Source: Warburgia ugandensis (Eukaryota > Streptophyta > Magnoliopsida > Canellales > Canellaceae). Taken from it: a stretch of DNA of 64,000 nucleotides. The notes below the pieces were generated by a model. That model ran no database searches, had not been told where the DNA came from, and saw only the letters and a program-made list of their open reading frames with translations. A program made the translations under genes and the position numbers. Within the stretch, counting starts at the first letter, position 1. Each line of letters starts with the position of its first letter. The stretch is from positions 77,757,944 to 77,821,943 of the forward strand of contig CP141130.1 in assembly GCA_035236585.1 (NCBI GenBank). The letters are read 5' to 3'. Below, piece by piece: positions 6,415-57,242 of this stretch.

Positions 6415-9400
6415 TCATTCGTGCAGGCAAATTGAAGCTGAACATAGCTTCAGTTTGTCCATAGTCACTGTCTTTGTTAACATATCTGTTGGATTCTTAT
6501 TGCCTGGGATCTTTTTAAGTGCTAAGACTCCATCCTCTAACAGAGATCTGATGAAGTAGTAGCGAATACTAATATGCTTAGTTTTGGCATGGTATGCAGA
6601 GTTCTTTGCAAGATGAATTGCACTCTGACTGTCACTATAAAGAACATTTTTCTCTTGTTTGAATCCTAGCTCAGTTAACAAACCTTGAAGCCAAATCATT
6701 TCCTTACTTGCTTCTGTTACAGTTACATACTCAGCTTCTGTAGTGGATAGAGTAACAATCTTCTGTACTTGCGACATCCAACTAACTGCTGTTGTACTAA
6801 CTGTATACACATAACCAGTGGTGCTTCTTCTGTGATCAAGATTGCTAGCAAAATCATCATCTACAAAACCTTGAATCTTCAAATCTCATTTGCCATGTGT
6901 TAAGCACTTGTCAACTGTGCCTTGTAAGTACCGTAAAATCCACCTCATTGCTTCCCAATGAGACTTCCCTGGATTTGACATGAATTTGTTGACAACTCCC
7001 ACTGCTTGCCCAATGTCTAGCATGGTGCAGACCATGGCATACATGAGACTTCCAGTAGTTGAGGCATAAGGAAACTTAGCCACAAAGTTTCTCTCATCAT
7101 TTGTTTTGAGAGACTGTTCCTTGGATAGACGAAAATGATTTGCCAAGCGTGAGACACTGGCTTGGCTTTATCTATGGAGAATCTCTGCAAAACACGATTG
7201 ATATACTTTGCCTGAGATAACTATAATATTCCTCATTGCTTATCTCTGGTGATCCTCATCCCGAGAACTGTGATTTGCAGGGCCTAAGTCTTTCATTTCA
7301 AATTCCTTCCACAAATGTTGCTTCAATTTTTTTATGTCAGCCATATTAGAGTCTGCAACTAACATGTCATCAACATAAAGGAGCAGTATGATATAACTGG
7401 ACTTGTACCTCTTGACATAGCAACAATGATCAGCATTGCAACTCTAAAAATTGTTCTTGTGCATGAAATGATAGAACTTTCTGTACCACTGCCTTGGAAC
7501 TTGTTTCAACCCATACAAGCTTTTCTTTAGTCGGAAAACATGATCCTCTTTGCCTTCTATTGAGATTCCTTCAGGCTAGTATATGTATATTTCTTCTTTT
7601 AAGTCACCGTGAAAAAATGCAGTATTTACATCTAGTTGCTCTATATGAAGATTTTCTGTTGCAACTATACTTAGCACTGATCTGATGGTTGTAAGCTTCA
7701 CAACTGGAGAAAAAATGTATGTGTAGTCAATTCCTTCCTTCTATTGGAATCCTTTGGCTACTAGACGAGCTTTGTACCTCTTTGAACCGTCATTCTCTTT
7801 TTTGGTTCTATACACCCATTTGTTGTGAAGTGCCTTCTTTCCCTTAGGTAACTCAACTAAGTCCCAAGTCTCATTGGAGGTTAAAGACTTCATCTCATCT
7901 TTCATGGTTAGCTCCCACTAACTAGCATTATCTACCTGACATGCTTCATCATAGTACTCAGGTTCTGCTCCATCTGAAAGAAGCAGATAATTCATGTACT
8001 TTTTATTGGGTACATGAGGCCATTCTGATTTTCTAAGTTGTGGAGCTGCAGCAGGTGATTTTGGCACATTGTTCATATACTTTCTGTTAGGTACATGAGG
8101 CCATTCTGATCTCCTAGGTTGTGGGGATGCAGCAGGTGATTGCAGTGCATCATTCTTTTTAGTGCTGCTTTGTGCCATATGCTCTTCTGAATGGGACTAC
8201 ATAAGATTATCTTTTGTTGTTGGAGATTCTGGAATATCATTAATGTCCACATATTCAAAATCACCCTTTACTGAGTCACTGTGACATGTGATATTCCTTT
8301 CTTTATACATCACCTTTTCGTTGAAGATCACATCTCTGCTGCAAATCACCTTCTTGTTTTCTTCATCCCAAATGCAATAGCCAAACTCATCCTCACCATA
8401 GCCGATGACTACTTCTGCCCAAAACTGCTTTGGTAGAACTGACTATATATGAATGCTTCTGGCTCTTTCTGTCAACATTCAGTTCATACGCTCAGCTATA
8501 CCATTGTCTTAAGGCGTACCTAGCAAGGTTCTCTCCATTTTGATCCCGTGCTCATAGCAGAACTTCTTGAATTTGGTGTCTTCATATTCGTCACCATTGT
8601 CGGTTCTGAGCTTTTTGATTTTCAAACCTGTCTCATTTTCAACCATAACCTTCTATCTCCTGAAATCATCAAATACTTCAGACTTTATGCTTTAAAAAGT
8701 AAACCCATACCTTTCTAGAGTGATCATCAATGAAAGTCACAAAGTAGTGTTTCCCACCAATGGATGAGACAATCGTTAGTCCCCAGACATCAGAGTGAAC
8801 AAGTTCTAGCCTCTCATTCTTTGGGGTTCTACCACTTGTCTAAAAGCTGACCCTCTTTTGCTTTCCAAGTATGCAATCTTCACACTTGTCAATCTCTACT
8901 GACTATAGACCTGGAAGTTTCCCCTTTAAGTGCATAATCTTCATCCCTTTCTCACTCATGTAGATGAGTCTCTAGTGCCATAGATTGGAGTTTTCGTTTC
9001 CTGTTGCAACTGCAATAGAAAAGCACTCCCCTACTTTCATATAAAGAGTACCTCTCTTCTTACCCTGAGCAATTGTCATTGCGCTCTTTGAAATCTTCCA
9101 ATCATCACCACAAAAGATCGTGGTGTAACCTTCACTAGCCAATTGCCCTACTAAGATTAAGTTCTTTCTTAGGTTGGGAATGTGTCTGACATCCTTCAGG
9201 TCCCATATAGACCCATTCAACTTAATCTTCACAATACCTTTACTAATAATGACACAAGGTTGGTCATCACCAAGGTATACCTTTCCAAGGTTTCCAAGGA
9301 CATACCTCTCAAAGAGTTCTTTCTGTGAAGTAGCGTGGAACGATGCTCCATAGTCTAACACCCAAGACTCCTATTTGCTTTCCAAAGAGCATATCAATGC

Positions 9401-10212
9401 ATCATCTCCTCCTGAGGTGGAAGTAACATTTGCCTCTGCCTCTTTCTTTGGACACTTGCATTGATTTTTGTAGTGTCCTGTCTTCCCACAATTCTAGCAC
9501 TCTATATTTTTCGGGTTCTGGGATTTATTGGAATTTTTGGATTGATGCCCCTTGCTCTGTTGTGGCTATGTGATCTACCATAAACATTTCCTCTTTTGGA
9601 ACTTTTGCCTCTGCTATCAATGTTCAGAGCTAACCCTGAACTGACAGGTTCACATGACTGCATCCTAATTTCTTCTGTCAAAATCATGCTGACGACCTCG
9701 TCAAATTTCAAATTTGATTTTCTTGTGGAACTACTGATTGCAGTAACTGTGCCTTTCTAACTTTTTGGCAACTGGCTAAGAATTAGCAAAGCATGTATTT
9801 CATCACTGAAAGTGATCTCAACTGAAGCTAGTTGATCAATCACTTCATTGAAACCGTTCATGTGCCTTCTAAAACTCCCACCTTCAGGCATTTGTAAATT
9901 AAAGAGTCGTTTGATCAAATGTACCTTATATGCTATAGACGGTTGTCCATACATGCTTGATAAGGCTACCATAAGAGATGTGGTGGTCTTCTCATTTTTT
10001 ATATTGAATGCCACGGACTTTGACAATCTCAATCTTATGGTGCCAAGTGCTTTTCGATCAAGTAACGTCCACGCGGAATTATCCATGCCTTCTGGCCTTC
10101 TTTCCAATGACAAGTGAAGATCCTTTTGATATAGGTAGTCTTCAATTTGCATCTTCCATAAACTAAAATTAGTGCCATCGAACTTTTAGATCTTCTCTTT
10201 ATCTGAAGTCAT
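6415..10212 (-). pseudogene. Copia gag-pol polyprotein, broken by many stops
   Basis: On the - strand the domain order is Copia-like. Gag starts near 10212 (FDGTNFSLWKMQIEDYLY, after an early stop). A CCHC zinc knuckle near 9500 reads C-stop-NCGKTGHYKNQC, followed by the protease region WVLDYGASFHATS at about 9361. Integrase and reverse transcriptase lie across 9000-7150 and are too interrupted to read as one frame. Conserved RT tail (YATS..GSLMYAMVCT) is at about 7080-7000, and RNase H with STTEAEY, YSDSQSAIHLAKN and AKTKHI lies at 6882-6415. A segment of about 27 codons around SEWPHVPNRKYMN is tandemly duplicated at 7990-8140. The product would have copied and integrated the element; it is dead here. 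Confidence 0.85.
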
Positions 10213-15209: not shown

Positions 15210-15238
15210 GAGAGAGCTTTCCATTTCCGAAGTGTTTG

Positions 15239-18200
15239 ATGGCTATGGCTGCATCGAATGTCGCGACTGCATCCGGCAAGAATCTGTGTGTTCAGTTGAA
15301 TTATAGTTCAATTCCTACTCCGAATTGTGCAAGGGAAACGATAGCTACTTCTTTGTCGGAACCTATCGAATTGGCAAACTATGATCGGTCTGGTTTTCCT
15401 CTTCATCCCCAATCGGGATCTCTCAAACAACAGCTTGTAAAAGAAGTCGTTTGTAGTACGAACAAAATGACACCTGGAATTCCTAATAAGAAGCATGTTC
15501 CTCAAAAGATTGATTCTTGCGCCCCTCCGGCACAAAAGCAATCAAATCAATATTTTCCTCCTTCGAAGAAATCTTCCAAACCAAGTAAGGTACAATCGGT
15601 TGTAACGGGTGCAAATAATCCTGCTAAAAGGGGGAATGTATCTTCACGGATGCATGCTTTACCGAAAGGTGCAGATGAGTCGCCCCAGATGTGCATTAAA
15701 TATCCTCTTGTTCTTTGCGAAAGCTGTAATTCGAACCGCCCGTTGAAACTAGCGGATTATGTTTTGGAAGATGCAGCTCCTTCTAGTCATGGTAAAGAAG
15801 GATTAGGAGAAGGGAATGACAGATTGACTAGTTGGGCATCGGTCAGTCATTACCAGAGTGTGGGGAGTAGTTTTGGAAATCAGTGTTCGGACACGAAGGG
15901 TAGCTTTGTAACTGCCAATGTCAGTGACGATAGCAGTAGCACGGGGATGACTAGTGGAAGCATCAAAGCTGGTGATGTGCATGGAGATTCCGTCGAGAGC
16001 AGGAATAGTATCTGCAGGGGCAGCACTAGTAGCAATGTTAGTGATGAGAGTAGCTCAAGCAGTTTTAGCAGCAGCGTTAACAGACCTCATAGGGCGAATG
16101 ATTATAGATGGGAAGCCATTCAGGCCATTCGGTTGCGTGATGGAGTTCTGGGGTTGAACCATTTTAGGCTTTTGAAGAGGCTGGGGCGTGGGGACATCGG
16201 CAGTGTTTATCTATCGGAATTGGATGGAACTAGGAGCTTTTTTGCTATGAAGGTTATGGACAAGGCGGCCCTTGCAAGCGGAAAGAAACTGCTAAGAGCT
16301 CAGACAGAAAGAGAGATATTGCAATCCCTGGATCATCCTTTTCTACCCACATTATATACACACTTTGAGACGGAAAAATTTACTTGCTTGGTAATGGAAT
16401 TCTGCCCTGGAGGAGACCTGCACGCCCTTCTTCAAAGGCAGCCAGGGAATTATTTTCCTGAGCAAGCAGCAAGGTATCCATACTTTTTGAAAGTTTTTTA
16501 ATTTGAAATCATGTGTCAGTCTAGTTTTGCTCACAAAATCTGCTTGGACAATGTTTTAGTGGTTGTATGTTCCTAAATTTACCAGGATTTTTCACTTTTT
16601 CAAATAAGTTGTAAAATGTGAAAATTGCATATCCTCAAGAGGACAAAAACATTAATCTAACATGAGCTGAAAAGAAACAAATTGGGGAACAGTTAAGGTT
16701 TGTTTGCTTGTTTTTTATGGGTCACGGATGCTATCTGAGTTGCAACATGTTTCATATTTGAAATCTTGCCATACAGCTAATTTCGGAAGATCATACTGAA
16801 TAGTACAATCTGAAATAGGATTACCTTGCAGTGCAGCTAATTTTGAAAGAGGATTACACTGGATGCATGCGGACAAGGTTATTGCTGCAAGGTCCTTCAG
16901 TGAAACAATACTTGCTTCCTCATTTATATCACGAGAACTAAAGCTAGAATTTTTAGGATTGATGAAATCAGTCGTAAAGGATATAAATAGTTTGAGCAAA
17001 GTAAAATCTCCTAGATCAAACATGGCTAGCAAGAAACTGAAACCTGAGTAATAGGATCTTTGTGAGTATGTATGTCTGCTCTTTTGCAACCCAAGTTGCA
17101 GAAAAATTTCCTCAGGTAAAGGATGGTTTTAACAAGGGTCCATTTGGAGTCGCACTTGGTAACTAACTGTCTCTCATAGGTAAAGGGCTCATATTTGAGA
17201 ATTTAGATTGGATCTCCATCAGCTAGTGGGTAATATTTTGTGGGAAATAATTTGCAGAGCTGAGTGACTGAAAATAATTTTGGATTCAATATTGCCTTCG
17301 TGCATAAATGTTTTAGAAACACTTGAATCAAGAGTGTCTTAGCATTGACTTCTGGCGTGCACTGTGAATCGGCAGATTTGATCTGATTTTTGGTTATTTA
17401 TAATCATCCATCCTCAATTTCTGCATCACACACCTTTTTGTGGCAACTCATAAGATGAAATAAAATATGCTTCTGCTTCAGTGACATGACTACCTTAGTC
17501 AAAGCCTTGTCATCTAATTTTTCAGCGTAGTTGTGTAAATCCTGTAGCTGTTCCCAACACGATATGAAAACTCAAATAAAAGAAGACTTACAAGAGATTT
17601 TCTATGGGAACAAGAGGAGGAAGGACGAGGGGGAGGATGGATTGCAAGGATGCCTCTAGAAGAGAAGCCTATGGGATCATGGTTTCAAATGGTCAAGTCA
17701 AAGCGAGGTATGCTTCTGTTAGTACTCCATAGGTTGGTTGTGTTAAGGGTTTATCTTATGGAAGATTGTTTTGGAACAGGAGGAAAGTTTCTGTGTAAGT
17801 TCTTTTTGTAAAGTGAGGTCTGCCCTTTTAGACTTGTTCTGATTGCTTGGACATGCACGTAAGATTCCTTGTCTGTTTGCATCATGAGATTCTCTTAGAG
17901 TCTCTTATGGGAAAGGTGATACCACCTCTCCACTTACGCAAGTTTGAAAGGCATTCTATTCCCCTGGTGTTCAAGCTTTTGCTGAAGGATACTTTAGGGA
18001 AGACACCCTCTTGAAGATTTGGAGAAAGATCATCATTGGCATACAAGAATAGGGTGTTTTTCCACAGAATGCATAATTAATTGTTCTCATCCATTTTAAG
18101 GTGATTTCCATGGTTATAAGCATCATGAGATTCTCTTAGAGTCTCTTATGGGAAAGGTGATACCACCTCTCCCCTTGCGCAAGTTTGAAAGGCATTCTAT

Positions 18201-21181
18201 TCCTCTGGTATTCAAGCTTTTGCTGAAGGATACTTTTAGGGAAGATACCCTCTTGAAGATTTGGAGAAAGATCATCATTGGCATACAAGAATAGGGTGTT
18301 TTTCCACAGAATGCATACTTGATTATTCTCATCCATTTTAAGGTGATTTCCATGGTTATACGCTTCTAGTGTCCCAATAAGAGTTAAGTCGGGAAAAAGT
18401 GTGAAGATTAGATGTAGATTATATCACTAAGATGTTTCTGTTTTTCATATTAAATTGTCAACTTGGTATGTGAAACACCACGGTTATTAAAATATAAGTT
18501 AGGAAATTTTGAGTTTTTGTTTCAAAGAAATTTGAAAACCTTTCTCCCTCTACTCTTTTCTTCTTTTCATCTCCTTAACGAATGCCATCTAAACTAAAAC
18601 AATCTTCATACTGCCGGAAGCAGATATATAACTATTGCTCAGTGTATTCTTGGATAAAACTGCCAATCTGAAACCTCATCAAATGGTTAGTGCATGCATC
18701 TAATTGTTAAAGCTCAGTTGAAAGGATGCTTGTGGTGATAAGTTGATTAGAAGACCCTACAACTGAGTTCACTGGAAAGGATGCTCGTGGTGATAGCTTG
18801 ATTATAAGAACCTAATAGTTGTTTTGCATGGTTCGCTTGCTAGAAGGGGTGTAAATAGTCTCAGCAAATGTTACAGCTTTTGCACTCAGAAGTTTGAACT
18901 TTACAATTTATTCTGTCACAATGAAGAGCTTGATTTGATGTGTGAGCAGCTTCTAGCCAATCAGCAGCATCATACTCGAGCCAATCAACAACATCATACT
19001 CCAACTCAATCTACTTGGGGTTCAGGTTGGTGTCTTTGCACAAGCTTATTACCTTTGTCAGAGACCATTATGTAGAAGAGAAGGAAACTCAGGATGAGGG
19101 TTTACAGAAAATCATGGAGGTCAAAGTTCTCTAACATGAATTTGCCCATGAAGATTATAGGAGAAGGTTGCTGCTTGGTCATGCTACATGTCACAGTATG
19201 AAAAACCCGAGGATTATCTATGTCATGACATATTTTAAGTTTGAGTTTTGGTGAATGAGGTGTGTTCTCATTTAGCTACTTGTAATGAACTGGAGTTCCA
19301 AGTGGAGTTACATTCCACTTCCCAAATATTGTTTGCTTGAATTGTGACGAGTTAAGAGTTTCTTCCCAGTGCTCTGGTTGGTGGTTGATCGTGCTATATC
19401 AAGAATATGAACTATGAGGACCGTCTACAACATAACATATTTTAGATTTAGTAGATGGTGAATGAGAGGGAATGTGTTCTGATATACACGCTTTTTGACA
19501 AATTGCTTGCTTGAATTGTGATGTGTTCTTGTCGTCGGAGAATTGCTTGGTTGAAGAGAGCGGTAATCCAAGAGTTTCTAAATGTGATTTATTTAACTAT
19601 ATTGAATAGAAAGCTTATCTAACCATTGGAAACTTGTAAAAGTGTATCATGGTGACAAGAATGCTTACAAACCATACAACTGATATTGTACCCACAAGAT
19701 GGATTTTGATGAAAAGATACAACAGCACAAAACCCTCAATAGCCCAGTGGTCGGCTGAACAGGCGCATTCCCTGTTTGTATGCTGGGTTGCTGATTTGAG
19801 GTCATGCAGGATGTGTTAGTGGGCTTTAGGAGGGTGTGTGAGTGTTATGTGTCATATGCACTTATACCAAGAAGACAAAAAAAGAAAAAGAAAGATGCAA
19901 CGAGTTAAAAATGATGTTTGAGATCAACAACAGCCTTGGATGGGAGAAAAGCTTAAGAAAGGACAAGTGAAAGAAGAAGTGCTGCTTAGCTATCATAATC
20001 ATCCAAACCACTTTTTATCCATAAGACATGTAAATCTAAAACAACAAGATGAAGTCAGTTTAGCATTCCTCCTTTTATTAATGTTATCTATCCATAGATG
20101 CTTTCTGATTTTGTGTTTGGGTTGAAATTATAGATATAAATAGGTGTATGCGAACTGATTGTTACATAGTGTGAAAACTTGGAGATACTACGACCGTTGT
20201 CTAGAACTTTGAAGTTATGACTAGATATCAATGGGAAAATTAATGTATTAGGAAAGTCTATGTTATTAGTTATAGATTCACTGCATTAACCTCTAGTATT
20301 CATGCAGGTTCTATGCGGCAGAGGTTCTCCTTGCTCTGGAGTACTTACATATGCTTGGGATCATTTACCGGGACCTTAAAACGGAGAATGTCTTAGTTAG
20401 AGATGACGGCCATATCATGCTCTCGGACTTTGATCTCTCTCTAAGGTGTGCCATCTGCCCAACTCTGGTGAAGTATGCAAATGCCGATATGGATTCATCA
20501 AAGAAGATCTCGGCCAACTGTGTTCAGCCTGCCTGCATCGAGCCAACTTGCATCCAGCCTTCATGCATACAGCCTACATGTTTTACACCGCGATTCTTGA
20601 CAAGCAGGTCGAAGAAAGAAAACAAAGTCAAACGAAAAACTGACGTCTTTAATCAAGTGAGCTCACTTCCTGAGCTCATTGCAGAGCCTACATGTGCCCA
20701 ATCAATGTCTTTCGTGGGTACCCACGAATACCTGGCCCCTGAGATAATCAAAGGTGAAGGCCATGGGAGTGCTGTTGATTGGTGGACATTTGGCATTTTT
20801 GTTTATGAGCTTTTGTTTGGGAAGACCCCATTCAAGGGGTCAGGAAATCGTGCTACGCTGTTCAATATTGTAGGGCAACCCCTACGGTTTCCGGAAACCC
20901 CTATTGTGAGCTTTGCAGCAAGGGACTTGATCAGAGGTTTGCTTGTGAAAGAGCCTCGGCATCGGCTTGCGTATAGGCGCGGGGCCACTGAACTGAAGCA
21001 GCATCCATTCTTCCAGGGTGTGAACTGGGCACTTATCCGATGTACCATTCCACCAGATGTGCCGAAACCATTTGAGGTAGATTTCCTGCCAAAAGAGGTC
21101 CAATCGGCATCAACAAGGGAGAAGGCACCGGCGGTTGATGTGAAGACTTACGATAAATGTTTGAAGATTGATTTCTTTTGA
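15239..21181 (+). CDS. D6PKL: AGC VIII protein kinase, D6PK-like (two exons)
   Basis: Exons are 15239-16473 and 20308-21181, joined in frame at the junction AG/G (Arg412), giving 702 residues. Start is the ATG of MAMAAS; a TTG lies just upstream. Residues 1-300 are Ser-rich and disordered. The kinase domain begins near Phe309 with glycine loop [13 protein letters not shown] lysine K338 (FAMK), catalytic D434 in [14 protein letters not shown] (452-454, usual for plant AGC VIII) and GTHEYLAPE at 549-557. Between DFD and GTHEYLAPE is a long insertion with five Cys-x-x-Pro repeats (483-503) and a basic patch (about 510-522) of the type that binds D6PK to the plasma membrane. The C-terminus IDFF resembles the PIF motif. 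The single intron is where D6PK relatives have theirs. Family members phosphorylate PIN auxin exporters. Oddity: Thr437 replaces the usual Pro of KPEN. Confidence 0.93.
17879..18360. repeat. Tandem duplication, two 241-bp units, in the kinase intron
   Basis: Units 17879-18119 and 18120-18360 both begin gcatcatgagattctc and end near catggttata. Differences are few (for example cacttacgca versus ccccttgcgca, and one extra t in acttttaggg). No convincing coding content. Confidence 0.8.
19738..19888 (+). mobile_element. tRNA-derived SINE (family 2) in the kinase intron
   Basis: It has A-box-like tagcccagtggtcgg and B-box-like gggttgctgatttgagg about 40 bases apart, then a unique body and an A-rich tail (agacaaaaaaagaaaaagaa). 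It is sense to the kinase gene and distinct from the Au family. Confidence 0.55.
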
Positions 21182-24938: not shown

Positions 24939-24944
24939 TTTATT
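24939..24944 (-). terminator. Polyadenylation signal for the defensin-like gene
   Basis: AATAAA on the - strand, 45 bases after the stop codon at 24989. Confidence 0.5.
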
Positions 24945-24988: not shown

Positions 24989-25333
24989 TCAGAGTGGCGA
25001 ACAATTGTAGTTACAGACGCATTGAAATGCACCCTTTCCATTGGTAACACAAACTCCATTCCCCTTATACTGTTGAAAGCATTGCTGCCGGCAGCTTGCG
25101 AGGCTGCACCCGCTTGGGTTCAGCACTGCGGAACATCTTTGGGCCTCCACCATCATCCCAGCTGCACAGTAAAAACAAGTAAAAGAAACCCACCATCAGT
25201 TTGAAGAAAGAGAACAGTCAATGTAGGTTGTCTGAGAAGATGTAGGAGGAAAGACAGACAAAACAAGGGAAAAACCTGAAGAGAAGGCAAGGACAATGAG
25301 GAAAAAGTAGAGAGTGCAAGAGAACTTGGCCAT
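24989..25333 (-). CDS. Defensin-like secreted cysteine-rich peptide (two exons)
   Basis: Exon 1 (25333-25276) encodes a start and a hydrophobic stretch, MAKFSCTLYFFLIVLAFSS. A 114-bp intron with donor CAG/GTTTTT and acceptor TGTGCAG/C follows, and exon 2 (25161-24989) ends at TGA, for 76 residues in all. The first 20 or so residues are a signal peptide. The mature part has eight cysteines at 29, 38, 43, 47, 57, 67, 69 and 73, i.e. C-x8-C-x4-C-x3-C-x9-C-x9-C-x-C-x3-C. The CxxxC...CxC pair is the mark of the cysteine-stabilised alpha-beta fold, and an intron just after the signal peptide is normal in plant DEFL genes. Such peptides are secreted and act against microbes or in cell signalling such as pollen-pistil contact; which applies here cannot be told. 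The sequence differs from classical PDF1/PDF2 defensins. A possible TATA box and a poly(A) signal frame the gene. Confidence 0.88.
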
Positions 25334-25395: not shown

Positions 25396-25404
25396 ACTTA
25401 TAGG
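25396..25404 (-). promoter_or_regulatory. Possible TATA box of the defensin-like gene
   Basis: The - strand reads cctataagtacc about 65 bases before the ATG. Position and sequence fit, with no further proof. Confidence 0.4.
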
Positions 25405-30775: not shown

Positions 30776-33700
30776 TCAAGCTGACCTTCTGCGGAAGGAA
30801 TAAGCCACAGCAACTGATGCCAGTACTCCTACGACGGTGAGAGCGACAAGAGTGTCACACTTCTCCCAAGTGTTAAACCGTGTTTTCAGTGACCCTACAC
30901 CTCGCTTGCTCGAACAGCTTGCACCCTTGATGCCATTTTGTACCTCGCTCTCACATCCAGAACTCCCCTTGTTAGTTTCCACTTTTTCATCCCTACAACA
31001 AGAAAACCCATTGGCTTCCTGACAACAGCCACCATCCCTTGATTTGTCGTTCTTGCTGCGAGCTAATGGTTCTTTGTCACCATTTGGTTGAACCCTTCGC
31101 TCATGAACTTTTCTCTGTTCTTCCTTTGACAAACCCATTTGACCCCTGCAATTGATATCTCAGTCAGATCTTTGCCTTTAAAACATCGTAATTCAGAGAA
31201 GAACAATTAATTTCACCACCTATAAATGCCTTCATGTAGAATACTCAATCAACTACATTTTTGGCTTCATAAGTGAATATAGATGCACTTCCCTGTTTGC
31301 CTATCAAATTGCACAAACTAAAAGCAGTAGAGAAAGGGAGCAATGCAGTCACAAATATAGACCACAACACAAAAGTGCAGATAACATTTATTTGTGAAAA
31401 GAGAGAGAAGACTTAGTCCGCTAAATATAAACAATTAGCACACTCCTAGTAGAAGGCTTATATTTGTTACTTAACAGTAATTGTTCTTATTCACCAACAT
31501 CTTAGGTTCACTTCTCGACAAGAAATTATCAGAAAATAAGAGATAAAACTAAATACACAAAAATGTGGTTTTAGATCTTGAACATGTATGCAGTTAGGAC
31601 ATTGTGGCACTGTGGCACAGACAGTAGGGAAAACATCGTCCCTGGATGGTTCTCTTGTCCCCCAGCAACTCTGATCCATAGAGCATGGCCGGCCTTATGG
31701 CCATTCTATAGAATTTTTCTTTTAGTTTGAGTAGCACCAACCGATCACACAAAACTCCAGATGCACATCTCCATTTGTTCTAACCCGCTTGGATTCTCTG
31801 GATAACCTCCCTCTCAATCTCTCCACTCTCATGAATCATTAATCCTAAGTACTGAAAGTGGTCTTTTACGGGGACTTCTTGGTTATTAATCTTGGTTGGT
31901 GTTCCACTCCTACTCTCCTTGCTAAAATTGCATTCCATATATTCTGTCTTAGTTCGGCTAATTTTAAATCCTTTAAATTCTAATGCTTCTCTCCATAACT
32001 CTAGCTTTATGTTTACACCTTCCCTTGTCTCGTCAAGTAAGACTATATCATCTGCAAATAGCATGTACCAGGGAATATCCTCGTGCAAATGTTTTGTTAA
32101 CTCATCCATAACCAATGTGAAAAGGAATGGGTTCAATGCCGATCTTTGGTGCAATCGTACAGTGACAGGAAAATCACCAGTCTCACCACTAGTGGTCTTA
32201 ATATTTGTTACCGCTCCCTCATACATCTATTTAATTATGTCTATATACCCTTACAAAACCCCTTTATTGCCAAACACCTTCTATATTAACTTTCTAGGGA
32301 CTCTATCATAAGCTTTCTTTAAGTCGATAAAGACAATGTGGAAGTCTTTCCTCCTCTCCTTATATTTCTCTACTAATTGTCTTAATAAGAAAATAGTTTC
32401 CATGGTAGACCTCCTAGGCATGAAACCAAACTAATTCTCCAATACACTTGTTTCATGTCGTAGCCTCTTCTTAATCACTTTTTCAAAAAGTTTCATAGTG
32501 TGGATCATAAGTTTAATCCCTCGATAATTAGTGTAGCTCTGTATGTCTCCTTTATTCTTATAAATTGGTACAATAAAGCTTTTCCTCCACTCATCAGACA
32601 TTTTCTTTCATTTTATAATCTTGTTAAACAACTTAGTCAACCAAACCACCCTAATATCTCCCATATGCTTCTAAACCTCTATTAGTATACCATCAGGCCC
32701 CACGACCTTTCTTGATTTCATCTTTTTTCAAGGCCTCATTCACTTGAGGTATTCTAATCCTACGTTCATATCTATAATATCCAATGTTATTTAGATTTAT
32801 AGTATTTTCAATCCTTATATTCTTAGAGCTATTGTCATTTAACAATTTTTGAAAGTATGTTTCCCACCTTTGTTTGATCTCATAATCTTTGACTAATACC
32901 CTTTGATCATCGCTTCTAATGCACCTAACATGATCTAAGTCCTTACTCTTCTGTTCTCTTACTTTTGCAAGTTTAAACACATCTTTCTCACCTTTTCTTG
33001 CTCTTAGTCTATTATAGAGCTCATCAGATGCTTTTAGTCTCACTTACTATTTTCTTAACAACCTTTTTAGAATTCTTATATTGTTCATAGTTTTCATTAT
33101 TTCTAATCTTCTGCCATGCTTTATAATACATCCGTTTTTCTTTAATAACTTTTTGCACTGTTTCACTCCACCACCATGTTTCCTTTGCTAATTGCCTTTT
33201 TACTTTTAGATACTTCTAAGACATCTTTTGTCACTTTCTTAATGAACTCAGCAATATTAATCCACATGGTATTTACTTCTGTTTTATAGTTCCAATTTCC
33301 TTCTACCATCAATTTATTTGTGAACGAGGTTAATTTCTCTCCTTTTAAGTTCCACCACTTAATTTTTGGATACTTATTAAGTTCATTTCCTTTCTTCCAT
33401 CTTTGGATATGGATATTCATAACCATTAACCTATGTTGTGAGGTTAAACTCTCACCTAGTATCACCTTACAATCCTTACACATAGATCATTCATTATTTC
33501 TAAGTAGAAAAAAGTCTATTTGGCTTTTATGAAGCCCACTTTTAAAGGTTATTAAGTGTCCATCCCTCTTCTTAAAGAGTGTATTTGCAATGGCCAGGTT
33601 ATATGATAAAGCAAGATCGAGGATATTCTCCCCCATCTCATTTCGTTTACCTATATCATACCCTTCGTGTATTCTATTATATCCTTCCTTTTCTTTTCCT

Positions 33701-43938: not shown

Positions 43939-46900
43939 ATGGAAGAGACCAGTTTTGGGAATATCGTAGTTGGGGCCATGATAAAATTAAACGTCACAAA
44001 TTATATATTGTGGAAACCTAGAATGGAAGTTCTTTTGCACTGTAAAGATCTTCATGACCCCTTAAATTATCATGAAAAAAGACCTGAGGGAGTTTCTAAA
44101 AAAGACTAGATAAAAATGAATAAGAAAACTATAGGTCAGATCCGACAGTGGATTGATAGTAGCATATTTCATCACGTTGCTTAAGAAGAAAATGCCTATA
44201 TTCTCTGAAAAAAGTTAGAGAATATGTATCCGGCTAAGACCGCTTAAAACAAGGCTTTATTGATAAAAAAGACTTGTTAATCTAAAGCTAAAGAGCGGAA
44301 TGATTGTGGCGAAACATACCAATGAATTTCAAAATCTAGTTAATCAGCTAGGAACAATGACATGACAACTTAGAGATAAATGGCAAGCTCTACTATTGCT
44401 AAACTCACTACCTGAAAGCTAGGAGACACTAGTAATTTCACTTAGCAATTCAACATCAGAAGGAAAGTTAACAATGGCTATAGTCAAAGACACATTATTC
44501 AATGAGGAGACCAGAAGGAAAGAAGCCGGCATAGACCAGACACGTGCCTTGGTAACAGAAAATAAGCACACTGGGAGAGATAGGCAAAGGGGGAGGAGCA
44601 AGAGTAGGCCAAGAGGGAAATTGTCGACTCACAACAAATCAAAAAGTCAACTCAGAGGACAGTTCAAGTTTTACCACTACAGCATTCTAGAGCATATGAA
44701 GAGAGATTGTTGAAAACTGAAGAAAGAGATGGCTCATGGCAAGCCAAAGGAGGACAATGGTGAGACATTAGTCATCATTGCTTAGGACATAGCAGTGCTC
44801 ACTACTAAGGAAGAGTCATGCCTATATGTGATCAAGAGTGAAGTATAGTGGGTAATAGACACATTAGCTTCCTATCATGCCACTCAACACAAGGACTTCT
44901 TTGTCACATACAAAGAAGGAGACTTTAGCACTATGAAGATGGGGAATGACAGTTCCTCAAGAATAGTTGGGATCGGTGATATGCAGATAAAGACAAACAT
45001 AGGTTGTACAGTAGTACTCAAGGATGTGCGACACATATAAGAACTCAGATTGAACCTGATATTAGTCATGGTTCTTGATAAACAAGGCTACACTAACTAC
45101 TTTGGCAACAATACCTGAAAATTGATGAAATGCGTTATGATCATGGCTAAAAGACACACATGTAGCACACTCTACAAGACCCATACAAGAATATCTAAAG
45201 ATAGCCTTAACGCAGTGGAGGATGAAGGATCTCCAAACCTTTGGCACAGAAGACTCGGCCACACGGGAGAGAAAGGTCCGTTCACACTTGCAAAGAACTA
45301 GCTCATCAAACTAGCCAAAGGTATAGCTCTTAATCCATGCAATTACTGTTTATTTGGCAAACAACATAGAGTTGTCTTCTCCTCTTCTAATAATAATAAT
45401 AATAAACAAAATATTAAGTTTAGTGTACTCGGATGTATGTGGTCTCATGGAAGTAGAGTCACTAGGCAAGAACAAATATTTTGTAACATTTATAGACGAC
45501 ACATTTAGGAGGATATTGGTATACTTTGTAAAGAACAAAGAATAGGTATTCGAATGCTTTAAAAGATTTCATGCGATGGTAGAGCGACAAACTCGAAAGA
45601 AGCTCAAGAGCTTTAGAACAGACAATGGAGGAGAATACACATCAAAAGAATTTAGGGCTTATTGTGCAACACGCAGCATTCGACACGAGAAGATAGTTTC
45701 ACGTACCTCACAGCACAATGAAATAGCTGAGAGAATGAACCAAACCATTGTGGAGAGAGTAAGATGCATGCTCAGTATGGCTAAGCTACCTAAGCCACTA
45801 TGGGGTGAAGCTGTGAAGATCACTTGCTACTTAATCAACAGGTCACCATCAGCACCACTTGACTTCGAAGTTGCAAAACAGAAGTGGACCGGCAAGAAAG
45901 TGACCTATGCACACATGAGGATATTCGAGGTGCATAGCTTTTGCACATGTATCTAAAGAGATGAGACAAAAGCTAGACCTAAAATCTACCCCATGTATCT
46001 TCATCGGGTATGGAGATGAAGAATTTGGATACAGATTGTGGGACCCTAAGACACGAGGAATCATTCGTAGCAGAGATGTAATATTTCAAGAGAATCAGTT
46101 CTATGAAGATCCAAGAAAGGCTAAAGATACTATCATTCCAGCTACAGTACCAGATTTAGCACTTATTTAGATCAACTCGAACCAGAGGCAAAGGAGTTCG
46201 AGCAGGGGGAGCATCAATCCCCTATACCAGAAGTTATTACAACATCAGATATTGAATCATCACCTTAGCTTGAAGCAAAAGCTCAACCAAAGATGTCAAC
46301 AAGAGGACGTATTCTGATTCCATCACAGAAATATTCCGAATCAAAATATACCATGCTTACTGATGAGGGGGAGCTAGAGAATTTTCAACAAGCCCTGGCA
46401 CATGTAGACAAGGGCAAATGGGTACAAGCTATGCAAGAAGAAATTAGCTCATTAAAAAATCAGACATATGAGCTAGTGATACTTCCCAAGGGAAAAATAG
46501 CACTGAAGAACAAGTGGGTCTTTAAGGTAAAAAGAGGAGGCAATGAAGAACCAGTTAAGTACAAAGCGCGATTGGTCGTCAAAGGTTTTGAGTAAATTAA
46601 AGGAATAGACTTTGAAGAGATCTTTTCACTAGTAGTGAAGATGATATCAATCAGGATTATATTCTGATTGGTTCCAAGACACAACTTGGAGCTTGAATAG
46701 ATGGATGTCAAGACACCTTTATTACATGGAGATCTAGAGGAGGAGATATACATGGAACAACCAAAGGGTTTCAAAGTAAAAAAGAAGAAGCATCTATTAT
46801 GCAAGTTGAAGAAATGCCTCTATGGCCTCAAGCAAGCGCCAATACAATGATATAAGAAGTTTGACTCATTTATGACTAGTCAAGGTTTCAAAAGAACAGT

Positions 46901-47927
46901 TGCAAATTAGTGTGTGTACATCCAGAGATTACTCGAGGGTAAATTTGTCATTCTACTATTCTATGTAGATGACATGTTGATGGTTGAACCAGATATGATC
47001 ATAATCAGCAGGTTGAAGAGAGAGTTATCTAAGTCTTTTGACATGAAAGACTTGAGGGTAGTTCAACAGATTTTGGGGATGGAGCTTACAGGTGACAGAA
47101 AAACAAGGAAGTTGTGGCTGTCATAGGAAAAATATGTTGAATAAGTAATCAAGAGGTTCAACATGGAGAGCATCAAGCCAGTCAACACTCCATTAGGCAA
47201 TCATTTCAAATTAACCAAGAAGATGTGTCCCTACACACCACAGGAAACAGATAGGATGGCTAAGATTCCCTACTCATTAGCAGTTGGGAGTCTGATGTAT
47301 GCAATGGTGTGCACAAGGCCGGATATTGCTTATGTACTAGGAGTTGTAAGCAGATTTCTTTTAAATCCAGATAAAGATCATTGGGAAGCTATAAAGTGGA
47401 TACTACAGTACATGAAGGGCATATCTAAGTTGTGCACGTGCTTTAAAAATACTGATACACTCGTGGAAGGTTACACATATGCTGATACGGCTGGAGATTT
47501 TGATGGAAGAAAGTCAACATCATGGTTCATTTTCACTTTTGCAGGGGAAGATGTATCATGACAGTCCAAGTTGGAGAAGTGTGTAGCTCTATCGACAATA
47601 GAAGCTAAATATATTGTCATAGCTGAAGCAGCTAAGGAAACGTTGTAGATAAAGCGCTTTCTTCAAGAGCTCGGTATCACACAGGAACAATACAAGATAC
47701 ATTGTGACAGTTAGACTGCTCTTGACCTAAGCAAGAACTCAATGTATCATGCGCACACCAAGCACATTGACATACTGTATCACTAAATACGAGAGGTGAC
47801 AGAAGAACAGATGCTAAAGCTAGAAAAGATTCACACTGATGAAAATTCTGCAGATATGTTGATAAATGTGGTAACCTATGAGAACCTGCTGCTATGTAAA
47901 AACATAGCAGACATGAGTTCAGACTAG
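43939..47927 (+). pseudogene. Copia gag-pol polyprotein, broken
   Basis: The ATG at 43939 opens gag (ETSFGNIVVGAMIKLNVTNY), interrupted by stops. A basic stretch and a degraded zinc knuckle end near 44713. Protease-region WVIDTLASYHATQHKDFF is near 44850. Integrase at 45576-45956 keeps RTDNGGEYTSKEF and AERMNQTIVERVRCML. Reverse transcriptase begins near 46400 (WVQAMQEEISSL, LKNKWVFKVK), with YVDDM at about 46965 as the catalytic motif. RNase H follows at 47460-47830 with several stops (DSQSALD is replaced by a stop-containing version), and the frame ends SSD-stop at 47927. A frame change lies between integrase and the following segment near 45956. Confidence 0.85.
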
Positions 47928-49934: not shown

Positions 49935-52900
49935 TCAGGTGAGGCTATCATGTGCCTTTGCAAAATGAATTTCCCTTTCTGCCAGTTCAAATATTTCTCT
50001 TACACGATGCCTGAACTTCTCCGATATGTTCCTGGTGATCCTGTCCTTGAATTTGGTGCTTTTCAGCCATGCAATACCTATGTATACGTCACAATGACAT
50101 GCATGCGGGACTGATGCAGGAACCTCAATCTGATATCTCATATGGACCTGTTAGATGAAGATAAAAAATGAACAAAGAGCTATGTTTAATGCTGATTGGT
50201 AGTGTTATGAGGAAAAAAGAAGAAAACCCATGCAAATTATTCGAGTAGAGCATACACGGAAATGGTCCCCAAATGGAACATCCTGTAGAGTTGAAACCTC
50301 ATCCACCAACCAACCATTACCATTCAGAATGGGAGATTTTTGCTGTGTGCTAGTAACTTCCCCTCCAAAAGTTGAAACATAACGGTTGAACTTGTAGCAG
50401 ATATGTCGTTCATATATATCAGGTGTTACAGCTTCCCATGGAGTTGTTGTGTAATTAAAACAGCCAACTTTCTCCATTAATTTATGGTCCAACGTGCCTC
50501 CATCAAAAATTTCCATAAGTGAGTATATCTGTGGAGCATCAACCACAATGTTTCAGCGTGGGAACATGCATTTAAGATTTATTTTATTGAACACAAGGGG
50601 ACATATTACAGAACAGATAGCAGCAAACCGCATCATATCATAAAATAGTGGGCTAAATGAACAAAGAATAAACCACTCACATCAACAGGAAGTTCTGCAG
50701 AATAAATCTTCAGCATATTGGCATCTTCAACACCTAAAAGGGATCCAGTATCTTCCAGTTGGGCAGCTCTTTCATCTTGATCCTGCTGGTCCTCTGCTAA
50801 ATGTGCTTTCTGTTCAGGGGTCAAGGTTCTAGCTCTCCATAAAGCCATGATTGTCCTGTTTAGACACGCATATTACTAGGCCCAATTTCACTAATTACAA
50901 TTCCAAGAAAATGGCAGGACTTCATACTTTCCAAATACTTCAAGGTAAAGATGATTACTTCACCTGCTAGCTACGTTGAATGAAACAAATGATTGAAAAT
51001 GGAATCTTAGCCTCCCTTCTTCATCTTGAGCCTTTGCCCCGTGCCTAGCATCAAGGCCCCGCCCCTTGCGCAGGATAATAGCCAGTGTTGGGCTGCCAAC
51101 TGAGGCCAGGGATGGGGGAACCACTTGAATATCTTCAATGTCCACCCAGAGGAAGAAGAATTTGGTTTTATGCCCAAATAAGTTAGCATAAAACCCAATT
51201 ATTCTCGTTGACAGAAAAATTCGTCCCTGCACCAAAAACCTTTTATTGTCTACAATACAGAGGATTTAATCAATAGAAATGTCACATGTACACACACACA
51301 CACGAGCATACAAAGACTTCAGACAAACCCTAAAAGGATTCAGATTAGAACTATCATTCCACAAAAAACCCCATCCTCTACTCTAAGTTTACTAAAATAT
51401 AAGTGTTCCCACATAGAATTGTAAAGTTAACCAGGTAGTGAATCCTATGCAATCCCAACTCATATTTTAATTAAAACTATGAATTACCAAATTGCCTGCG
51501 GCAAGTTGGTAATTTTCTTCTAGATTTTAGTTTCCAATGCAGAACCAGTCCAAAAGTTTTGACGGCTTAAGAATAACAAATAGTACCTGCAAAGGCATCT
51601 TCCGCTTTAAGCAGCATGAGAAGTCGCTGATCAGAAATTCTTCTGGTGGTAACCCAAAGAGCTTCTGGAAGGTTGAATTCCTGTGAGGCGAGCGAAGGTT
51701 TAGCTGCAAACAGGATACACAAATTAAGAGTTAACAAATAGACAACAACAAACAAAATAAAACATGGTTCAGTCTGTTTACCTTCTTTCCGACCTCCTTC
51801 TCCATCTTTGTCAAGTATTCTCTGATGGTTTCAACACCTTTATTATTGTCCAAAAAAATTCTCAAGTGTAGTTTGGTTTCAGATGCTTGGGCTAGTTTTC
51901 CCTCAAGGGGAACCCACATATCTGCTAGTTCTACCGCTGTATGTTTTAGGAAATTGATCTCAGCATGTCCAAGAGAACTAGCATTGTCAAATGTTCCATC
52001 AAAATCAAACACCTCCACATCAAGGACAGAAGGTGGCTCGTCCATTGCATCAAACTCCAGTATTTCTGCATATTACTTTTGTTAGTGATGGAACAAGAAT
52101 GTTAGAATAGAATGACAAACACAAGTGATCTCTGAAAGTTACAGAATTTTACCATTCCATTTAGGACTAAAAGTCTGAAGCTTGACTGAGCTTCTCCTTG
52201 TTTTTCCGTTGCAGGTGAAAACCACATAAGGATCCAATGATCCATTTGAATCCATAGATGTGAAGTTATCCCCTTCAATCAAAGCTACCGTAAGCAACCA
52301 TCCATGGCCTTGAGCTTTGACTCCATGATCATTTGCTGTAGAATAAGAGGAATGTTACCCAGCTAAGTTATAAATGTTAAAAGAAAAGCAAAACAAAAAT
52401 TGGCTGCATTGGAGACGCACTAAGATACAGCTGTAGAGAGACTTCCTCTTCATAAGTGGGTAAGGATATTATATTTGTAGCCTATTAAAGAAAAGCTAGA
52501 AATTAGAGAAGTTCGAAGTTTGTGTTCTCCAATGGTTATTACCTCTTCTCAGTCGAGCTTGTATGAAATGTGAAATCATATTATAAACACACTCTCCTTG
52601 AAGAAAAAAAATGCCGGAGATGATCAACTCTCCAAAGCTATCAGGCAAATCCAGACCACTAAATTCCAGGCCCTTGAGCTGGCTAGGCCCTGAGAGAAGA
52701 ATATGTAAGAGGATATACAAGCCCATGAAGATGGTGGAAACTACAGTAAAATTCCAAAAGTACTCAATTGCCAGATCCCAGTCTGACTGGTGCTCCATCT
52801 GTAATGAGGCCAATATCTGCTGCTTATCCAACAGCTCTGCGGAATCCACTGGTCTAATGTTTTGAGCTAGCAAGTCTGCAAACTGTTCATAACTTTCCTT

Positions 52901-55900
52901 GAGTCCCTGCCGAGCCCCTGCTTCAATCATACCTCTCATAACTGTGCTATGATGAAAGTTTATATTCCATGATATGACCAGATGGGCTGATTCTTCTCCT
53001 GATAATAATTCTGCCCCAGGCATTATCCTAAAGAGTACCTCAACCTTAAAACAATTGCCATATGGGACATCTGGTGCGGTCACACTTGATAGAACAGCAA
53101 AATTGTTGCCATCTGCTTTAAGATAGGTTTGCTCCTCACTAGCTTTCACAGCTTTAACTAACTTTGTTGCAGCATTTGTGTAGGTGACAACTCTTCTTAA
53201 ACATGGTATCTCTTCACAGTCCCATGTCCACGGACCCTCTTGCAGATCTGTTGTTCCTTGCAGTTTTGCCAGGTCTTTCCTGAACTGTGAACTTGGAGCA
53301 AAAAGAAGTCTGTTTACGTCTTTGGGTGCTGCCATATATGTCTGATTACAAAGGACACCCCCTTGAAGATTTTCTGGCATTTCATGTTCATTTCTCGACT
53401 GCATCTGTTCAATAGCCTCTTCAAAGTTACAGCTACATGGTGTTTCATTTTTTCCATCTTCATTATATATTGGTACATTTGATAACTCCCCTAGATCATG
53501 GTTTGTTGATACAGTCAAAGAGTTAGAATCATCTGTACATTCAGTACCTTCATTTTTATTGAGAAGCTTCTGAATCAAACTGCCTGCAAAAGCCCGTACA
53601 GATTGTTTCTCCTCTGAAGCAGGTATGAAGCATTTCTCATCTGACGTTGTCTCGCTACAAACACTCTGAGATGCATCAGCTGAGTACGATAGTTCTTTCA
53701 GGGTTTCATTATTGGAGAGCCTTGAATAAGTTGGAGAAGGATGACAGGCATGATTCATGTCGCCTCTTCCATACAAAGACATGCCGAGAAGTATCTTTCC
53801 TGCATTGTCTAAGAATCATGTCATGCCCATGACATCAAATATTTCACAATGATACATCATAACGACTGTATTAGGCCTGACATATGGGAAGTGAAATATT
53901 TAAGCAAATGAAATTCTCCTCAAACCCATCTTTCGATAGAATCAATTGATGCCACTGCATGTCAAAGGAGACTACAGAAATAGAAGAATGGCCAGCTCCT
54001 CAAGCAATTTGGTAGAAAAGAAAGGTATAAACCTAAAAAAAGAAGTATTACTCTAATTGACTAAAAGGTCATCATCATGAATAATCTAGATTGAAGAAGG
54101 TGGATAATCAGCTCTCGTGAAGAGGTGCTGCATGCTTGGGGTTAGAGCAATAGGAAAATTGAGAGCTGCCAGATTAGATTGTTCAATGCCAGAAACTAAC
54201 ACTAGAGTTCTTTTAATAGACGGTAAACAAAAACTGGATCCATCCCAAGACTTTGAATCAGGTATGTGTAGATACCATAAGGACCATATTATTACAGAAT
54301 TTTATGTTTTGCGATTGGACAATAGATCGTGCTAAGCCCGCCCACATGAAAGCTTCTGTTTTCACATGCCCATGAAAAATAGTAACTGTTTGCCAAGTTA
54401 AGATTTAAGATACGTTCGGATTAAGAGGACAGTCTATTAGTTCTGTGTACCATTTATGTCCCAGCACTATCTATGACATTGTTTTTTTATAAACAATGTA
54501 ATTCTATAAAGGCCATTTAACTCACATATTGATGACTAGTCTGCTTCTCTTTCAGCTTAAGTTCTCCAGTGTTATATCTGCTCTCTTCTGCAACAAAAAG
54601 GCAAAGCTCAAGACATGTGAGGTTGTCGTTCAATTTGGCCAGGTAGACCGCCAGGCTATAGGTAAAGGAGGTTAAATTTGCCGACACTTTTTGAACATGT
54701 CAATTCAGGAGTATGCATGTTGCACTTGTTCACTAAACAACCTACTGTATTGGGTGTTCCTCTGCTTGATGGTGATGTTAAGCCCACTATTGTTATGTGT
54801 AATATCCTTACTCCAGTCAAGTGCATAGTTTAAGATCTCTGGGTCAGAGGAAGCGGCAGACCACAAAGTGTAAGCCGACTTACCTTGATTTTTTTGTAAG
54901 AGGCTCTTTCCCTGCCTCAAATCTGTGACCTCCAGGTCACACGACAACAACTCTACTACTACGCCAAGACTCCCCAACTGGTAACAAAAAGGATGCTAAG
55001 CCAAAGTTACATCACTGGTTATGAGAAATAGCCGTGCAACCAAAGATCTAGTTGCAGCTGTTTCATTGCTAAGGAAAGACTCTTGTGCAGCATGATGATA
55101 GGAAGCCAATGTCTGGAGGTTTGATATCAACAATTGCATGACATTTAAATCACCTTCCTCCAATTAAGTGGTGGTGAGGATTCATGTAAGATTTTTAACA
55201 AGTTGAACCAACACTAGAATGCTAATAATCTTATGAAAAATATTACCATCTGTCAACTAAAAATTTGTATAATGCTTTTATGTAATGCATTAGTGTTATT
55301 GAATATATAAAAGCCATTTTACAGTTCACCTCCATGTTTATAACCCAGATTCGATAAGTGCATTATGACCATTCAAGGTACGATATAGATTCAAGTTTTC
55401 AACCTTCTAAGGTGTCTTATTTCCTAATTCCTTGTCCTTAGATAGAATAAGTGATAATTATGTTGGATGTTAATCCATACAGACAAGAAATTACGCTGGA
55501 TAAGCAGAGGTTAACGCTATGTAGCCTTAATGCAGGAACCATCAGTGTGTGAGGAGTAATTGGGAATGGAACAGAAGCCAAGGACACATGAACTTTTGCC
55601 AAGAAAGAGCCGCAGCTAGAAGCAACGAGAAGGTCATAAAATAAACTTTGTTAATAAAGATAACCATCACATGTTTCTCCGCAAGAACCTCACTCCTGAA
55701 GTCATAAACTTTGACCCGGTGGCATCACAAGCTGTAAGGGGGAGAAACGTACAAAAAGTGCCTAGTAAACGAAACACAGCCGTATGCAGGGTCTGGAGAA
55801 GGGGTGAATCACAAGGGTCAATAGTACACAGTTTTACCTTATATTTGGTAAGAGGCTGTTTTCATGCCTTGAACCTGTAATTTCAAGGTCGTAAGACAAG

Positions 55901-56780
55901 AACTCTGACCTTGCGCCAAGACTTCCCTTCAAAATGGAAACTACTACAACAGTGATAAAGAAATTGAAAATAATAAAAATCATTTTAAAAGACTGTGCGT
56001 ATACAAGGTCTGGGGAAGGAGTGGACCACAAAGGTGAATAGTACACAGCCTTACCTTGCATTTTGCAAGAAGCTGTTTCTACGCCTTGAACCTGTAATCT
56101 CAAGGTCACACAACAACAACTTTACCATTGCTAAAGTTCACCTTCTCTACCTACCCTTACAAATTTATATAGGCTCTCCTTCTCTACCTACCCTTACAAT
56201 TTTATATATTTTTTCGACTCTCTTATATCCACGTGCCCTTTCAACAGCGGAAAGGAGAACCCCCAAATCAGCCTTGTTCAACAGTACCCAAAATTTCATT
56301 CCTTAAGCTATTCCTTCATCACAGTGATCCACTACAAGCAAAACCAATTTGTGTGAAATGAAAAAGAAGGCAAAAAAGAGAAACCATTAACACAAAAGAA
56401 AGAACTTTGATGTAGTAAGAAAATATATAAATACCAGAGTCTTTGGGCGTGGATTTTCCTGCATTAGCTTCCAATGAAAACCAAGTGGGTGGCAGTGTGT
56501 GTTTCTCCTCTTCAAGGGCCATCCAAACAGGAACTTGAACCTTACCCAGAAAATCTCCTTTACCATCTTCGTGAAAGATCCAGATAATAAGTTCCTCGTC
56601 TAAGTCATGCACCCTGAAAACGAATTCCTCATTCCAAACCGGGTTTGTGCTTTTCCTCACAACACTCGTTCTCGATTTACATTTACCCAGCTGTAGTTTG
56701 GCGTAAATCCCTGCAACTTCATCCAAATCCTTTTCCAACGGTAATTCATGCGCTTCCAAGACATAAACATACAGCTTCAT
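49935..56780 (-). CDS. C2-VASt-TM-C2-GRAM-VASt protein, At5g50170-like (nine exons)
   Basis: Exons on the - strand are 56780-56435, 53799-52543, 52335-52153, 52065-51782, 51703-51587, 51226-50964, 50855-50681, 50528-50256 and 50147-49935, all GT-AG and in frame, giving 1036 residues. Start is MKLYVYVLEAHELP. Order: C2 domain (1-110), Ser/acidic linker, VASt domain (about 262-435), hydrophobic span (about 464-485, FTVVSTIFMGLYILLHILL), second C2 (about 545-665, LDPYVVFTCNGKTR, VFDFDG), GRAM (about 700-815, FQKLFGLPPEEFLI, GLDARHGAK), second VASt (about 860-1030, FGGEVTSTQQKSP). Length and order match Arabidopsis At5g50170. VASt domains bind sterols and GRAM and C2 bind membrane lipids, so a role at membrane contacts is likely; no enzyme activity is expected. 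In the first C2 the usual SDPYV is replaced by AGIYA, so its calcium site looks impaired, while the second keeps DPY. Intron 1 (2.6 kb) holds three Au SINEs. Confidence 0.94.
54836..54977 (-). mobile_element. Au SINE, 3'-truncated, in intron 1 of the C2/GRAM gene
   Basis: - strand ggggagtcttggcgtagtag, tgacctggaggtcacagatt and taagtcggcttacac are clear; the block before the 3' end breaks up near 54838. Sense to the host gene. Confidence 0.7.
55780..55930 (-). mobile_element. Au SINE in intron 1 of the C2/GRAM gene
   Basis: - strand aagggaagtcttggcgcaag to accctgcatacgg. The last dozen bases of the family are missing. Confidence 0.72.
55990..56136 (-). mobile_element. Au SINE in intron 1 of the C2/GRAM gene
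   Basis: Very close to the previous copy in orientation and break point: - strand ttagcaatggtaaagttgtt to agaccttgtatacg. The pair may come from one duplication rather than two insertions. Confidence 0.72.
56137..56205. repeat. Short tandem duplication (about 33-bp unit)
   Basis: cttctctacctacccttaca followed by a(a/t)tttatata is present twice in a row, differing by a few bases. Confidence 0.75.
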
Positions 56781-57242
56781 TTCTCTGGTGAGAAGAAGAA
56801 GAAAAAGAAGGGAAAATTGTTTCCAAATTGCAACGAGAATGGTTAAGGGAAAGAAGCATTTGAAGGAGGGATGATTTGAGGTTGCAGAGAATGAAGAGGA
56901 GGAAAAGCGTTTTGGGTTCTGGCCATTGAATCGTTTTTTGTACGTGGAAGGAGAAGGGAAAGACACGAGAGCAAGAGAAAGAAAAACTAACTGGGTTTGA
57001 TGGCGGTTGCCGTACATTCAAATCCCATCTCGTGCTTAATTTCCTCACTAACATAACCGTCCGGACTATGGACTCTTGGTTTACGTCTTCCTCGTTGTCT
57101 GTGATTCTGATAGCTTTCTGACAAAGTGTTGGATAAAGAGTGCCTTGCTCAAGGCTTCATGCTTCCATCGGTTGCTGCCTTGCTAAAGGCTTTACGCTTC
57201 TGTCGGGTTCATTTGGTTGATCAATACTAAACCAAAGCTCAA

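Follow-up and report, generated by a model that had tools for sequence, protein, structure and literature searches.

The window, a 64,000-nucleotide stretch of the Warburgia ugandensis genome (C5:77757944-77821943, in an assembly of 1.12 Gb and 14 contigs), carries on its minus strand a small two-exon gene for a secreted-type, cysteine-rich peptide. By direct reading, exon 1 (25276..25333, 58 nt) opens with the ATG at 25333 and encodes, in 19 codons and one base, a signal peptide (MAKFSCTLYFFLIVLAFSS) whose hydrophobicity was judged by eye. A phase-1 GT-AG intron of 114 bp (25162..25275) separates it from exon 2 (24989..25161, 173 nt including the stop), which supplies the end of the signal peptide, the mature peptide and a TGA stop ending at 24989. 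The spliced product has 76 residues. Cleavage would follow Ala26 and release a mature peptide of 50 residues (24992..25141). Its eight cysteines are separated by x8, x4, x3, x9, x9, x1 and x3 residues, and it contains the motifs CxxxC and CxC as well as a GVC-x9-C stretch, which we take to be gamma-core-like. The mature peptide is basic (four Lys or Arg, no Asp or Glu, pI 8.74). The initial annotation, which did not name the strand, had described the same two exons, intron, precursor length and cysteine spacing, and the reading bears it out on each of these points. The AATAAA polyadenylation signal that it proposed is likewise in place on the minus strand (24939..24944), some 45 nt beyond the stop codon, and is conserved in a duplicate of the gene on contig C9. 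The proposed TATA box is present as a TATAAG (25397..25402, minus strand) about 69 nt before the ATG; however, the C9 alignment sets TATAAGTAC against TATTTAGTAC, with a GATAAG just upstream in C9, so that this element, not being conserved letter for letter, is only plausible.

The window has other features as well. A protein kinase gene occupies 15236-21181 on the plus strand, the kinase domain being divided between two or more open reading frames (ORFs), and a cysteine- and proline-rich insertion in it gives a keratin match below the cut-off. One of its ORFs (20351-21181) has a counterpart on C9 that is 88% identical. A VASt domain (52496-53782) and a C2 domain (56319-57017) are encoded by minus-strand ORFs within 52496-57017, which perhaps belong to a single gene for a C2-VASt protein. 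Retroelement remnants were found at 6415-10152 and 31780-33483 on the minus strand and at 45576-47561 on the plus strand; they comprise ORFs that, by eye, resemble pieces of a copia-type polyprotein, one of which (45576-45956) has an rve match below the cut-off, and a reverse transcriptase fragment at 31780-32226.

Exons and introns as short as these can arise by chance in AT-rich DNA, and a chance assembly of ORF and splice sites was considered for the two-exon model. Against it, the window protein matches PF07333 (SLR1-BP) with an E value of 1e-12 and 48.7 bits, 26 bits over the cut-off of 22.7; the match runs from residue 26 to 73 of the protein and covers positions 8 to 56 of the 56-position profile. 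The mature stretch alone scores 46.3 bits. The published, loose eight-cysteine pattern and the exact pattern of this protein are both found a single time when all six frames of the window are scanned, and neither occurs in 60 simulated windows of equal length generated from an order-2 Markov model. Together with a duplicated copy on C9 that has a matching gene model, these results lead us to reject a chance origin, the probability of which we regard as negligible. The sequence almost certainly represents an intact two-exon plant gene, whose secreted product has eight cysteines and belongs, within the defensin-like superfamily, to the PF07333 (SLR1-BP; PCP-A/DEFL/LCR) branch.

PF07333 is the sole family given by Pfam for this protein at E<=10. 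PF00304 (Gamma-thionin) is absent among its matches at E<=10, an absence to be read with the fact that HMMER filters discard most matches above an E value of about 0.1, and membership in the classical defensin family was rejected on this ground. The initial annotation had raised the possibility of a lineage-specific DEFL subgroup marked by this spacing. The proposal is unsupported, because the spacing falls within the A. thaliana PCP-A/DEFL/LCR pattern CX(5-12)CX(4-8)CXXXCX(9-16)CX(3-14)CXCX(0-5)C, as given in Table 2 of PMC9856046, and because PF07333 covers the protein. A search for homologues of the window protein among some 5.8 billion predicted proteins retrieved none (no candidate shared three words with it); this collection may hold few plant proteins, and the result is no evidence of novelty. 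A PF07333 search of 14 control genomes gave no match, which has no bearing on other plants. The gene is an ordinary new member of a known family, apart from being easily missed by gene finders. The initial annotation was right that ORF scanning misses such genes, but this is already documented: two databases that rely mostly on single ORFs are described as holding too few of the two-exon plant cysteine-rich peptides (PMC3924332).

A profile search of the genome scored 23 candidates and yielded nine PF07333 matches, all above the cut-off. A protein search gave five matches, two of which (L004 and L005) lie outside these nine, and the genome thus holds at least 11 distinct PF07333-type loci. Both L004 and L005 seem to be damaged: the frame of the former ends after about the fifth cysteine, and the latter has a stop within the matched stretch. 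Stops were also counted by the protein search in the C9 copy (L002), where the stop lies within the intron, and in L003, where it is the end of the frame, three codons short of that of the window gene; no exon 1 was recognizable in the 1.5 kb upstream of L003. For L009 a two-exon model is clear, its phase-1 intron following the signal peptide; L011 allows a model of the same kind, with more than one possible acceptor. At L008, L012 and L013/L014, several exon models are possible and none is clearly best. L013 and L014 (G000:C4:58774633-58806309) encode identical mature peptides about 28.5 kb apart and are evidently a recent local duplication. The claim of a defensin-like secreted peptide in two exons is thus upheld by the PF07333 match, by a duplicate of the same structure and by paralogs in which a phase-1 intron can be placed behind the signal peptide.

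Eight mature peptides from the 11 loci were aligned, leaving out the damaged L004 and L005 and also L014, whose peptide is that of L013. Ten positions are invariant in all eight, namely, the eight cysteines and the two glycines of a GxGxC stretch, and each of the eight matches PF07333 at E<=1. Two of them match PF00304 weakly (best E value, 0.37), and one weakly matches Toxin_3. Their pI values range from 4.5 to 8.7.

The best other match in the genome is the copy on C9 (G000:C9), with its ATG at 5921896. It keeps the start, the splice sites, the frame, the eight cysteines and the stop position (TAA in place of TGA at the same codon), with exons free of insertions and deletions: 50 of 58 bases are identical in exon 1 and 145 of 173 in exon 2. 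Its intron, of 107 bp, differs at 21 of 107 ungapped columns and has 7 gap columns, both splice sites being kept. The flanks contain many gaps; directly upstream of the ATG, 52 of 59 ungapped bases are identical. The two proteins share 60 of 76 residues, including all eight cysteines, three of whose codons differ by silent changes. The charge of the C9 peptide is near neutral (one Lys or Arg, one Asp or Glu).

When the window was compared by blastn with the 120 kb surrounding the C9 copy, 383 matches at E<=1e-10 were obtained, 332 of which were set aside because their coverage marked them as repetitive. Among the remaining 51, 47 fall on one inverted collinear run from 2 to 63942 of the window and 4 lie off it; the whole window (2-63942) is therefore collinear, in inverted orientation, with G000:C9:5865900-5960000. 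The gene therefore belongs to a large duplicated block, most simply explained by a segmental or whole-genome duplication, and because this inverted collinearity extends over the window, the pair looks like an old duplication in which both copies were retained. Within this block, a stretch of the kinase gene (17721-18366) matches two adjoining places at 83985-84911 of the compared C9 block, which suggests a small local duplication on C9.

The comparison of the two copies indicates constraint on the protein. The Nei-Gojobori method (NG86) gave a dN of 0.11 and a dS of 0.46, LWL85 gave 0.10 and 0.44, and a maximum-likelihood option gave 0.11 and 0.35, so that dN/dS lies between 0.23 and 0.33 by the three methods. 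When 35 changes were placed neutrally in 228 bases (20000 trials), the frame stayed open in 29.8% of the trials, all eight cysteines were kept in 3.7% and at least 60 of 76 residues remained identical in 0.25%. With the intron as a yardstick the constraint appears weaker, dN being about half of the intron divergence. The nearby kinase ORF pair has a dS of 0.20 over 275 codons, below the 0.46 of the DEFL pair, which has few sites, and this gap may be small-sample noise. That the gene is out of use, with little or no transcription and slow decay after duplication, would fit the damage in two close relatives (L004 and L005) and the missing exon 1 of L003. We nevertheless hold this to be very unlikely, as the frame, splice sites and cysteines are intact in both copies, silent changes are in excess between them and the sequence just before the ATG is well preserved.

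What the retained gene does is best approached through what family members do elsewhere. The Pfam name SLR1-BP derives from Brassica proteins with a stigma glycoprotein as binding partner, and SLR1-BP1/2 are described as pollen coat proteins binding the stigma glycoprotein SLR1 (PMC5217362) and are counted among the gametophyte-derived pollen coat proteins (PMC7410184). In three Brassicaceae, 72 proteins with the PCP-A/DEFL/LCR cysteine pattern are reported from pollen coats (PMC9856046). Most Arabidopsis DEFLs are reported to be expressed in inflorescences (PMC3601123), and a grouping of these genes places their transcription predominantly in pistils (PMC5731061). In maize, two genes with an SLR1-BP domain appear in a table of an embryo-sac transcript study (PMC4269116), and the defensin-like ZmES4 is reported to open a potassium channel of the pollen tube (PMC2879413). 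From these published roles, a floral peptide ligand is our best guess for the window gene, with about an even chance of being right, the flower expression being borrowed from other species. Exon 1 provides the signal peptide of the precursor, and the mature peptide of about 50 residues probably folds into a cysteine-stabilized alpha-beta (CSab) unit with four disulfides. It would most likely be an extracellular, short-range ligand of floral tissue, working between pollen coat and stigma or in pistil and ovule, and would use its variable loops to bind a receptor or a wall protein; the gene would be one of two copies retained after an old segmental or whole-genome duplication. Taken as a whole, this account of a retained PF07333 duplicate encoding a secreted floral ligand is the best explanation and is somewhat favored.

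Its main rival is a role in defense, in which the product would be an antimicrobial defensin-like peptide that flowers, seeds or infected tissue secrete and that acts on the membranes or wall components of fungi. The basic mature peptide (pI 8.74), with its presumably gamma-core-like GVC-x9-C stretch, would suit such a role, and the family profile weakly finds antifungal plant defensins in the PDB (antifungal protein 1, 1ayj, E=0.087; PDF1.1, 2m8b, E=0.072). Some DEFLs are reported to serve reproduction as well as defense (PMC9856046), but the pathogen-responsive ones are described as a small set (PMC3601123). Against a defensive function stand the absence of a PF00304 match for the window protein at E<=10, the weak matches of just two of the eight family members and the lack of conservation of net charge: the window peptide is basic but its C9 duplicate is nearly neutral, so charge is not the conserved feature, and the eight family peptides spread widely in pI. 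We therefore regard defense as the less probable role, with perhaps a minor share of the likelihood.

The difference in charge also allows the two retained copies to have split their roles, the window copy having turned basic and acquired a new target and the C9 copy having kept its near-neutral charge. With L003 as the outgroup, simple parsimony assigns 5 of the 11 differing mature positions to the window branch and 1 to the C9 branch, leaving 5 unassigned, and three of the five window-branch changes (D34N, N52K and Q62K) add positive charge. However, L003 is a distant outgroup, sharing 23 and 27 of 47 residues with the two copies, its silent sites are saturated and it is itself basic (five Lys or Arg, one Asp or Glu). 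Such a divergence of roles is unlikely. With this gene a known peptide family gains an intact member, and its two copies are an example of duplicates held under constraint; it is of use for the annotation and comparison of the PF07333 family across plants and changes no general picture.

Set beside classical plant defensins (PF00304; PDF/RsAFP), the window peptide is alike in being small, basic and of the secreted type, with eight cysteines and the CxxxC and CxC motifs, and unlike in having no PF00304 match at E<=10 and in its first cysteine spacings, x8-x4. In PDF defensins these spacings are x10-x5. The best relatives of solved structure are the defensin-like domains of brazzein and Art v 1, found with the family profile (2kpy, E=0.0023; 7w8h, E=0.0059; 1brz, E=0.011); this kinship is remote, the best chain found with the single window sequence having an E value of 0.32. 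The C9 duplicate has the same two-exon structure and differs in charge, with one basic and one acidic residue versus four basic and no acidic residues. As for the SLR1-BP (PCP-A/DEFL/LCR) family itself, location in the pollen coat and binding to stigma SLR1 are features of the founding Brassica proteins, SLR1-BP1/2. The window gene resembles the family in its signal peptide, in its eight cysteines spaced within the published ranges, in a mature part of about 50 residues and in a Pfam match over the cut-off. The resemblance extends to gene structure, with the signal peptide on exon 1 and the mature part on exon 2 in both the window and C9 copies, an arrangement with which L009 and L011 are compatible.
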